Origin: a virus
Strand: one strand, 5' to 3'
DNA: 29,921 nucleotides
IMG/VR virus record: IMGVR_UViG_3300033388_002942
Coordinates: 1-29,921 of that record
The position numbers were made by a program, and so were the translations under genes. Every line of letters begins with the position of its first letter. The first letter of the stretch is position 1. The notes beneath the pieces were generated by a model, which saw only the letters and a program-made list of their open reading frames with translations, had not been told where the DNA came from and did not search any database. This document shows, piece by piece, positions 27,715 to 29,672 of the stretch.

Positions 27715-27721
27715 TTTTTAT

Positions 27722-27757
27722 AAAACTCCGCGTAGTTCGGTTAAGAACGTGTTATGC
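27722..27757. repeat. attC-like right half-site (array boundary)
   Basis: GGTTAAGAACGTGTTATGC resembles the L'-R' half of an attC (GTTATGC = R', 27751-27757). The left half (RYYYAACAA) is missing or degenerate. The stop codon of the gene at 27752 lies inside GTTATGC. This may be the old end of the array or an attI-like site. Confidence 0.5.
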
Positions 27758-27970
27758 GGCACAAATTCCGTACTTATTATCATGGCCGCGCCACTCTTCA
27801 AGCACGTCGCAAACATCAGCATTCCTACCAATCGAAAAAGAAGTGCCATTAAAATTAAAGCAGATATAAGCCACATCAAATTTTTCTGCCTTTAGCTTAG
27901 CTTCTTCCACTGCTTGCTCAATAGTAGTGCCAGCTAAAAATTCTACGTTAATTGTCATATTACTTTTCAT
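27752..27970 (-). CDS. Cassette ORF 1, small hypothetical protein
   Basis: This 72-aa protein starts 4 nt after GGAGG at an ATG (MKSNMTINVEFLAGTTIEQA). It has an alternating strand-helix pattern (NVEFLAGTTIEQAVEEAKLK, then VAYICFNFNGTSFSI), compatible with a small alpha-beta fold. Its TAA falls within an R-type box at 27751-27757, and the ribosome site abuts the R'' box of the attC-like site at 27980. That compact layout is typical of integron cassettes. Function unknown. Confidence 0.65.
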   Translation of the reverse strand: MKSNMTINVEFLAGTTIEQAVEEAKLKAEKFDVAYICFNFNGTSFSIGRNADVCDVLEEWRGHDNKYGICAA

Positions 27971-27979
27971 GCTTCCTCC

Positions 27980-28036
27980 GCATAACAAATAAATGTTTCG
28001 GACTGCTTTCAGCAGCCGCAAATTAAGGGGTTATAC
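27980..28036 (+). repeat. attC-like site A
   Basis: This 57-bp site runs from GCATAACAA to GGTTATAC on the plus strand. The inner arms include GACTGCTTTCAGCAGC, a stem-loop. Its R boxes are complementary except at the central bases, as in attC. The attC orientation (RYYYAACAA first) is plus, while the flanking ORFs are minus. Confidence 0.72.
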
Positions 28037-28037
28037 T

Positions 28038-28304
28038 TCATAAATATTCGTAATTGTGGGGGGTCATTATTGTCCACTGTTTACCATTTTTATCCTCAAA
28101 TCTTGTCCATTTTTTACCACCAGACAAAAAATCAGATTTAATACATATAATTTTCACATCTTTAAACACCCTTACACTTTCACCATTATCATTGATCATG
28201 TGTATATTTACATGCTCCCATCTTTCAGGGTTTCCGCAACCAGTTACACATAACAACGCAATCAAAATGGACAAAGCAAGAGTGCTTTTTTTTAAGTTTT
28301 TCAT
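28038..28304 (-). CDS. Cassette ORF 2, predicted lipoprotein
   Basis: This 88-aa protein has a classical type II signal peptide: basic NLKKS, a hydrophobic core (LALSILIALL) and lipobox CVTGC with the acylated cysteine at C23. The mature part is small and polar (WEHVNIHMINDNGESVRVF). AGGA stands about 10 nt before the ATG. The TGA is two bases from the R box of site A. It would be attached to the periplasmic side of a membrane. Function unknown; small phage lipoproteins often block superinfection. Confidence 0.7.
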   Translation of the reverse strand: MKNLKKSTLALSILIALLCVTGCGNPERWEHVNIHMINDNGESVRVFKDVKIICIKSDFLSGGKKWTRFEDKNGKQWTIMTPHNYEYL

Positions 28305-28364
28305 AATCTTTAATTCCTGTTTAGTTAATTAGTTTTTGCTTTGCCTTTTATCGCAAGGTTATAC
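28305..28364. repeat. Degenerate attC-like half-site
   Basis: GGTTATAC (28357-28364) matches the right end of the other sites, and the stop of ORF 3 lies in it. A TTGC/GCAA pair sits inside. No RYYYAACAA left half is visible before ORF 2's start. Confidence 0.4.
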
Positions 28365-28544
28365 GCACTGATTCCTGTGCCTTTCTCTTTCTTCTTTACA
28401 GTTAGAGTGCTGGTAATCATTGTGCGCGTAATGCTTACTCCCATGCCAGCCACATTTATCACAAATATTTTGCAGGCTAAAGTCCATACCCTCCCCACTT
28501 CTAATTAAGCTAAAATCGTCTTGTATTTGTATTGTGCTATCCAT
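28359..28544 (-). CDS. Cassette ORF 3, small Cys/His protein
   Basis: This 61-aa protein starts 6 nt after AAAGGTG (MDSTIQIQDD). A CDKCGWHGSKHYAHNDYQHSNC block contains four cysteine/histidine groups and may bind zinc. Its stop falls inside the GTTATAC box of the adjoining half-site. It lies in one cassette unit with attC-like site B beyond its start. Function unknown. Confidence 0.6.
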   Translation of the reverse strand: MDSTIQIQDDFSLIRSGEGMDFSLQNICDKCGWHGSKHYAHNDYQHSNCKEERERHRNQCV

Positions 28545-28567
28545 TATTTTCACCTTTATTTAATTAC

Positions 28568-28625
28568 GCATAACAACCACTAGCAACGGACTTCGCTAGC
28601 TCGCCGCTGTAGTCTTAGGTTAGGC
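28568..28625 (+). repeat. attC-like site B
   Basis: This 58-bp site runs from GCATAACAA to GGTTAGGC. The inner arms, CAACGGACT and AGTCTTAG, pair imperfectly, and R'' and R' differ at one position. GTTAGGC is the textbook R' sequence. Confidence 0.78.
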
Positions 28626-28627
28626 GG

Positions 28628-28816
28628 TTAGAGCTTCCCATTCCACAAATCTATATTCATCTTATTCATATCATGCAACTCTCTCTTAAAGTCACCGAAA
28701 CACAAATAAAAAAAAGGCAGCATAATTAAATATTGCGCTGGAATAGCCCATGAGCAAATAATAACCCTACACAGTAATACTCTAAACATCTCTAATATTT
28801 GTATATTTTTAAACAT
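28628..28816 (-). CDS. Cassette ORF 4, small membrane protein
   Basis: This 62-aa protein starts 8 nt after GGAGG. It has a hydrophobic core from about residue 8 to 40 (FRVLLCRVIICSWAIP, then YLIMLPFFYLCFG), probably one or two membrane helices, and a charged C-terminus (DFKRELHDMNKMNIDLWNGK). The stop lies three bases from the R' box of site B. Function unknown. Confidence 0.6.
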   Translation of the reverse strand: MFKNIQILEMFRVLLCRVIICSWAIPAQYLIMLPFFYLCFGDFKRELHDMNKMNIDLWNGKL

Positions 28817-28839
28817 TCTCTATACCTCCAATAGTTACC

Positions 28840-28912
28840 GCCTAACAACAAGTTCAAGCGGATTAAAACTGTTCGCTGCGCGGTTTTAACGCGCTTAACT
28901 CAAAGGTTATAT
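28840..28912 (+). repeat. attC-like site C (best match to the attC consensus)
   Basis: This 73-bp site has GCCTAACAA (R''), GTTCAAGCGGA (L''), GCGCTTAACTC (L') and GGTTATAT (R'), in the order and spacing of class 1 integron cassettes such as aadA. The inner arms pair through AAAAC/GTTTT. The stop of the gene at 28913 immediately adjoins the right end. Confidence 0.88.
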
Positions 28913-29140
28913 TTACTCCCACACGCCATGTCCTTGGTATTTTCCTTCTAAGAAATAGTGGTCGCACTCAAAAGAATAATACCCAACCCCATTACCAAGT
29001 CTGAGCAACTGATCAAATTCAATTTTGCCGTCGTACTCAACCTTGGCGGGGCATTTACCGAAACTCGCTTCTACATCAACTTCGTTGAACTTAATCCCCA
29101 TATCTTCAAAGTTTTTCTTTAGTATTTCGTAGTCGCTCAT
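28913..29140 (-). CDS. Cassette ORF 5, small acidic hypothetical protein
   Basis: This 75-aa protein starts at MSDYEILKKNFEDMGIKFNE, 6 nt after GGAG; an upstream extension has no ribosome site. The body alternates charged and aromatic residues (VEASFGKCPAKVEYDGKIEF, then FECDHYFLEGKYQGHGVWE). Its TAA abuts site C's ATATAAC box. No family is recognised. Confidence 0.62.
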   Translation of the reverse strand: MSDYEILKKNFEDMGIKFNEVDVEASFGKCPAKVEYDGKIEFDQLLRLGNGVGYYSFECDHYFLEGKYQGHGVWE

Positions 29141-29154
29141 AGAAATCTCCATAA

Positions 29155-29234
29155 ATATAACAATTATAAGCAGCAGCACTACGCTGCGCTCCGTTGGACA
29201 GCGCTACGCGCTGCCTCTGTTAAAGTGGTTATGT
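29155..29234 (+). repeat. attC-like site D
   Basis: This 80-bp site runs from ATATAACAA to GGTTATGT. The inner arm is rich in GCAGC/GCTGC and TACGC repeats that fold into an imperfect hairpin (29170-29215). It is longer than the others, as variable-loop attC sites often are. Confidence 0.72.
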
Positions 29235-29241
29235 GTATGGC

Positions 29242-29553
29242 TTATGGGGCTATAGCGTCTATAGCCTCAAGATTATAAATGTGGTACTCGTCACCCCATT
29301 TCTGCATCGCTGCTTGATAATTTATTCCATTACTGTCTTTTTTAAGATTAAACCAAACATACGCCCCGCCATATCCATTAACTCCAAGTTTTCCCCACTG
29401 ATACCCTTGATAGCCCGTAATCTTATAGCCTGATTCTGCAAACACTCGTTGTGCATTTTCTTTTACATCTTCTTTATTGCTGTAACTGCATCCACATAAC
29501 AATGCAGTCAAAAGGACAGGCACTAACAGTATTTTTTTTGTGGTAATTTTCAT
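29242..29553 (-). CDS. Cassette ORF 6, predicted lipoprotein
   Basis: This 103-aa protein has a type II signal peptide (TTKKILLVPVLLTALLCGC, cysteine C22). The mature domain contains KENAQRVFAESGYKITGYQG and YGGAYVWFNLKKDSNG, and its end is NLEAIDAIAP. GAGG lies about 9 nt before the ATG. The stop lies close to the ACATAAC box of site D. Like ORF 2 it would sit at a membrane and could alter cell-surface properties of the infected host, which is inference. Confidence 0.72.
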   Translation of the reverse strand: MKITTKKILLVPVLLTALLCGCSYSNKEDVKENAQRVFAESGYKITGYQGYQWGKLGVNGYGGAYVWFNLKKDSNGINYQAAMQKWGDEYHIYNLEAIDAIAP

Positions 29554-29659
29554 TGGTTTTGCCTCTGTTATTTTTAATTAGTGCAGGCCTAGTGCCTGCA
29601 TTTTACTGCTGGGGTTATTTTATAAAATTTAACAAAGGCGTTGGTTTTCGCCTCTGTTG
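29553..29659. repeat. Imperfect direct repeat around the last cassette boundary
   Basis: TTGGTTTTGCCTCTGTT (29553-29569) recurs as TTGGTTTTCGCCTCTGTT (29641-29658). One copy is the ribosome-site region of the lipoprotein gene; the other is inside attC-like site E. Confidence 0.65.
29581..29600. promoter_or_regulatory. Stem-loop in the lipoprotein leader
   Basis: TGCAGGC-CTAGT-GCCTGCA is a 7-bp perfect stem. It is followed by TTTT on the plus strand only, so it may be a weak plus-strand terminator or an mRNA leader structure. Confidence 0.45.
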
Positions 29660-29672
29660 CTTAGGGTTATGC
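29627..29672 (+). repeat. attC-like site E (short)
   Basis: At 46 bp it is shorter than typical. ATTTAACAA is an exact RYYYAACAA and GGTTATGC an exact right end. The middle folds as AGGCG/CGCCT. The HTH gene's TAA lies inside GTTATGC. This is the junction between the array and the resident phage gene. Confidence 0.65.

Follow-up and report, generated by a model that had tools for sequence, protein, structure and literature searches.

Integrons are gene-capture platforms of bacteria, and phages are their occasional carriers. The stretch of DNA analyzed here (the window), the 29,921-bp virus record IMGVR_UViG_3300033388_002942, raises the question of whose cassettes these are when an array of integron-type attC sites lies inside a phage operon, and of what moves them. 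A preliminary description had read the block as an array of gene cassettes of the bacterial type, with no integrase. We compared the window with a near-identical phage, G001 (IMGVR_UViG_3300025122_000063, 37,327 bp), which is 100% identical to it over window positions 21026-27756 and runs beyond it, as well as with bacterial integrons and other IMG/VR records.

Organization of the array and its surroundings

The array adjoins a phage operon that codes for a VRR-NUC domain nuclease (27023..27394, -; 23.6 bits, just under the cut-off) and, next to the array, for a 107-aa protein with no assigned function (27391..27714, -). The left end of the array, described here in plus-strand order, is an outer core box, G|TTATGC (27751..27757, +). 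It had been listed as a half-site; the box is there, and we take it to be a bare core site lacking a complete attC, as one would expect for insertion at a secondary attG-type site. No site free of cassettes was found. The ORF of cassette 1 (72 aa; 27752..27970, -) has its TAA stop inside the R box and is followed by attC A (27980..28036, +), which scores 19.5 bits with the covariance model R1 described below. Cassette 2 codes for a small lipoprotein (88 aa; 28038..28304, -), the 5' part of which overlaps attC B (117 nt; 28248..28364, +; 21.1 bits), with the R'' box of the site inside the lipoprotein ORF. The box GTTATAC at 28358, also reported as a half-site, is present but is the R' of this complete site. 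Cassette 3 (64 aa, GTG start; 28359..28553, -) again has its TAA stop inside the R box and is followed by attC C (28568..28625, +; 19.9 bits). Cassette 4 (62 aa; 28628..28816, -), the first 30 nt of which are common to a cassette of a second array in G001, precedes attC D (28840..28912, +; 27.7 bits), and cassette 5 (78 aa, or 88 aa from an upstream GTG; 28913..29149, -) precedes attC E, which has an inner stem (29155..29234, +; 25.1 bits). Cassette 6 codes for another small lipoprotein (103 aa; 29242..29553, -), whose 5' part overlaps the weaker attC F' (127 nt; 29494..29620, +; 15.2 bits). The last site in the window is the weak attC F, which has a stem (46 nt; 29627..29672, +; 10.9 bits).

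Sites A, C, D, E, and F are thus located as first described, stop codons do fall in or near the R boxes, and the division into cassette-sized units with a single ORF each is supported. The HTH gene, by contrast, had been placed outside the array as a phage gene, but its ORF (53 aa; 29667..29828, -) ends with a TAA inside the R box of F and is itself a cassette ORF, so the array extends beyond the end of the window. In G001, a further attC (L028:2740-2802) shows that the HTH gene belongs to this first array, which continues there to L028:2802. As proposed, the block is a CALIN-like array within a phage operon, with six or more sites in 1.7 kb and no neighboring integron integrase. A complete integron would have intI, attI, and Pc, and no integrase was found in G001 (no PF00589 match) or among the ORFs of the window.

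An Rfam scan gave nothing at the gathering threshold. A subthreshold match to the sRNA STnc180 (29509-29626, -; 37.4 bits against a cut-off of 50) lies over attC F' and is probably explained by its stem. Elsewhere, the window codes for a homolog of CsrA, a host-type global RNA-binding regulator (2247-2420, -; Pfam CsrA, 93 bits), and for a C-5 cytosine methylase apparently split across two overlapping frames (2491-3802, -), of which 3110-3802 corresponds to the first half of the Pfam profile and 2491-3546 has no Pfam match, possibly through a frameshift or faulty assembly. A protein of 269 aa that contains several cysteine motifs (19-828, -), neighbor of a methylase-like protein of 454 aa, has no match in Pfam or PHROG and, judged by eye, resembles radical-SAM proteins.

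attC architecture and the polarity of the cassettes

A covariance-model search had been suggested as a check of the sites. We located TIGR02249 integron integrases in 136 of 369 gammaproteobacterial genomes, took array-side DNA from 20, and built R1, a home-made model and not that of IntegronFinder, from 22 canonical-orientation attCs near Gammaproteobacteria intI genes only. In the control integrons, R1 recovers 129 sites, and the strand is the expected one for nearly all of them. Over the whole 29.9-kb window, its six top matches are all in the block and all on the plus strand (D, E, B, C, A, and F', from 27.7 to 15.2 bits, with E values of 1.2e-5 to 0.036), and nothing outside the block scores above 9.7 bits. 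Other phage DNA (194 kb) gave no match at E values up to 1, and the only matches in a further 258 kb were the CALINs already published for phages TJE1 and H101, so the sites are attC-like well beyond chance. The published sites of P12002L escape R1, which indicates that the model misses some real attCs.

The sites that R1 detects in the window and in G001 have RYYYAAC and GTTRRRY boxes around an imperfect palindrome, and in most of them the top strand scores roughly 9 to 28 bits higher than the opposite strand. Over 66 phage sites, pairing is kept by two-sided change, with 219 doubly changed cells against a mean of 92 after shuffling and 33 to 65 for slid structures, a count favored by the fitting of the alignment to the model; L'' and L' covary around unpaired columns. 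The folding of single sites as DNA, also suggested earlier, is an insensitive test in which one control attC was no better than shuffles; it bore out the stem of F but not C and B, which likewise did no better than shuffles. The weak sites of the window are F and F'. By sequence and hairpin architecture, then, the sites of the block can be classed as attC-type, in the polarity that the bacterial model recognizes.

The layout of the genes is where the block departs from bacterial integrons. In our controls, all from the one class Gammaproteobacteria, the attC top strand carries the longest ORF of 77 out of 81 cassettes, the other 4 being reversed, and cassettes with a clear ORF have it on that strand without exception (70/70). 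In the window, the attC top strand is the plus strand and all credible ORFs are on the minus strand, with the attC 5' of the gene. None of the credible cassettes has its ORF on the attC top strand with the attC downstream of the stop, so the match to the layout of integron gene cassettes claimed at first is not supported, each cassette being reversed relative to the bacterial ones. In the cassette at 28030-28364, a forward frame with a TTG start exceeds the lipoprotein by 4 codons. Among 57 phage cassettes from the window, G001, and other IMG/VR records, the longest ORF is reversed in 50 and forward in 7. A stop in the R' box together with at least 50 open reverse codons was found in 40 of 55 phage cassettes versus 3 of 66 control cassettes (Mann-Whitney p 7e-9), and the TAA stop of reversed cassettes is often made by the R' box itself.

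The reverse ORFs are genes under purifying selection, as shown by low pN/pS in the reverse frame: 0.05 for cassette 1 between the window and G001, 0.12 for a cassette X and its copy in G001 (see below), and 0.19 for the HTH ORF and its homolog in record L106. Two of them have lipoprotein signal sequences, read by eye, and in several cassettes the start of the ORF overlaps the attC. The R'' boxes at 28248-28256 and 29494-29502, which read TTGTTATGT (TTGTTATGY) on the minus strand, code for Leu-Leu-Cys immediately ahead of the lipobox cysteine of both lipoproteins, so the recombination box doubles as signal-peptide code in both of these cassettes. As an inversion at the time of insertion leaves each ORF oriented as before with respect to its attC, the reversal must be built into the cassettes.

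Variation between phages

The comparison with related phages called for in the preliminary description yielded one case, as scans of IMG/VR with cassette X, RdgC, and major capsid proteins found G001 as the only close relative. The outer box (...AACGTGTTATG) has three different continuations across the window and G001. In the window, cassette 1 comes next. In G001, the box at the contig start is continued by cassette X (99-aa ORF) and then cassette 1, and the one at the contig end by a third sequence (TGTCTTGGTTGTCGATTTC). An additional cassette thus sits in G001 precisely at the first G|TTATG box, and the presence or absence of a cassette between these near-identical phages is precise at the G|TT core box. 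Both contig ends of G001 have the same 97 bp ahead of the outer-box point, which suggests that the assembly of a circular or permuted genome apparently broke at a cassette junction; this junction appears to vary in the population. Outside G001, the 18-mer of the outer box had a single match (L092), inside the terminase gene of an unrelated phage, which we rejected as due to chance. In the remaining common array, all 26 differences between the window and G001 are within 27767-27895.

G001 has a second array (L028:5172-6303), the first cassette of which is a copy of X; the two loci are 87% identical over 347 bp, with R boxes as bounds. This array is closed by a 94-aa ORF with its stop in an R box (L028:6298-6582, -) that shows weak similarity to DNA invertases, at their DNA-binding end (PHROG 125, E 7.7e-4). 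A DNA search of both arrays against 50,697 phage records gave no match, and in bacterial genomes cassette X had four matches in Aeromonas, over 18 residues only, and these were set aside as unusable.

Further IMG/VR records were found with attC DNA patterns, most of them derived from the window phage, so the sample is not random; the orientation of the genes played no part in these patterns. Arrays with several R1 sites were found in L099, L101, L104, L106, L107, L108, L113, L115, L117, L118, L119, L121, L125, and L126, among others, and the same reversed design is present in at least a dozen other phage records. L126, which was found with the canonical-type GCGTTAT pattern, is likewise reversed. 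Many of these records have phage hallmark genes (terminases, portals, DnaB helicases, and T7-like primase/helicase and DNA polymerase), and the cargo of the arrays includes MT-A70 and N6/N4 DNA methylases and a PAPS-reductase-like protein. The genes that flank the arrays are mostly codirectional with the reversed ORFs, which indicates that the attC bottom strand is the coding strand of the operon. In the 369 gammaproteobacterial genomes, the attC patterns gave no hits, either for the GGTTAT type or for the canonical type, so this comparison carries no information.

Sites and genes also recur across records. Some attCs are 100% identical (L108/L115 and L118/L119) and others 90 to 95% identical (L105/L107, L102/L117, G001/L099, and G001/L103). 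In most pairs, identity over the flanking 60 nt to the left and right is close to background (0.49 +/- 0.06). The L118/L119 pair, for instance, is an identical 57-bp attC (L118:8685-8741 and L119:8633-8689) in otherwise different contigs with unrelated flanks. A homolog of cassette 1 lies beside an attC in L108, and the L106 homolog of the HTH cassette lies beside another attC. Shared attCs with unrelated flanks and homologous cassettes show that both sites and genes have been reshuffled among phages.

Moving the cassettes, and known systems

The array records have few recombinases: there was no PF00589 (tyrosine recombinase) match in 28 of 30, and no PF00239 (resolvase) match in any of the 17 tested. 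L117 and L125 do have integrases near their arrays, which were ruled out as integron integrases in cis for lack of a TIGR02249 match. The simplest reading is a recombinase in trans and, as the sites match the substrate of bacterial IntI, the first candidate is that of the host. We consider it likely that the block is an integrase-less array of reversed cassettes bounded by attCs in the operon of a tailed phage, with exchange at the R boxes by an integron-type recombinase in trans. Each gene has the attC in its 5' leader and its ORF on the attC bottom strand, the R' core box often forming the TAA stop, and the cassettes would be transcribed within the phage operon, whose coding strand is the attC bottom strand. 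The enzyme that inserts or exchanges cassettes at the R boxes would be a tyrosine recombinase of the integron type, most probably IntI from an integron of the host, acting in trans during infection. In bacterial integrons, the choice of the bottom strand sets the orientation of the cassette for expression from Pc (PMC8946536). There, a reversed cassette would be antisense to Pc, which argues for a phage-adapted pool; the reversed cassettes look like such a pool, exchanged among phages, and not like something taken from bacterial integrons. We lean, by a little, toward the wider view that tailed phages keep a reverse-polarity attC cassette economy of their own, with cassettes exchanged among unrelated phages, moved in trans by host integron integrases, and holdable by bacterial integrons but not expressed from Pc.

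The presence of RecE-like (exonuclease VIII-like), RecT, and RdgC proteins in G001 makes homologous exchange a serious rival. The cassettes would then be attC cassettes by descent, which recombination of the RecE/RecT type, homologous or by single-strand annealing, now moves from phage to phage at the short conserved R boxes and the attC stems with no integrase. The scarcity of tyrosine recombinases in most records fits this, attCs that are 90 to 100% identical could supply the homology, and the 26 differences at 27767-27895 resemble an exchanged tract. However, at the X junction only the R box is identical, a stretch of insufficient length for ordinary homology, and covariation keeps the pairing together with unpaired columns, which annealing does not need. 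We therefore regard homologous exchange as possible but rather unlikely, and an integrase acting in trans, probably host IntI, as the best-supported, if unproven, candidate for the mover.

That the phage simply captured a fragment of an ordinary bacterial integron, i.e., a canonical CALIN, would agree with the attC architecture, the small ORFs, and precedents in print (PMC9892861), but it is already contradicted by an ORF polarity opposite to that of bacterial cassettes. Two arrays within one phage, the same design across many phages, and the absence of DNA matches to known phage records also speak against it, and we find this origin quite improbable. The hairpins could instead act in the phage mRNA, by controlling translation, in processing, or as weak terminators between the genes of the operon, their likeness to attC being secondary. 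Every hairpin is indeed in the 5' leader of a gene and transcribed in sense, and some sites are overlapped by ORF starts; yet a model of bacterial attCs recognizes the sites with strand asymmetry, the R boxes are the best-conserved part, and the variant junctions fall at G|TT, making a purely mRNA-level role highly improbable.

If reversed cassettes in many phages are a phage-specific design that is apparently still moving, phages would be users of integron recombination, and the reversed genes in the window phage and in a dozen or more others suggest that phages hold an exchangeable cassette pool of their own. Identical attCs beside unrelated genes, and genes facing the opposite way, would then offer a handle on the origin of cassettes, and the arrays would offer another on how accessory genes (DNA methylases, for example) are exchanged singly by phages. 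Annotation that presumes that cassette ORFs follow the attC strand could misread reversed arrays.

Phages with such arrays had been thought little described, which calls for qualification: Qi et al. described 17 phage CALINs, attC clusters without an integrase, in 2023, and five of six attCs tested were IntI1 substrates (PMC9892861). It is the polarity that appears to be new, as that paper reports no consistent reversal of ORF polarity, and the open-access literature, preprints excluded, gave no report of consistently reversed phage cassettes. The CALINs of Tetrasphaera phage TJE1, Pseudoalteromonas phage H101/PH101, and Polaribacter phage P12002L are likewise integrase-less attC clusters in phage genomes, but by the polarity measure used here TJE1 is canonical and H101 mixed, whereas in arrays of the window type the ORFs are reversed and stop in or close to the R box. 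Like the cassettes of bacterial integrons, both chromosomal and class 1, those of the phages have an R''-L''-L'-R' attC, G|TT junctions, small single-ORF units, and variable cargo. The base before R' is mostly G in phage sites, where the search pattern favored G, and C in 31 of 33 control sites. The main difference is in the arrangement of gene and site, as bacterial cassettes have the ORF on the attC top strand with the attC downstream, whereas phage cassettes have it on the bottom strand, with the attC in the 5' leader.
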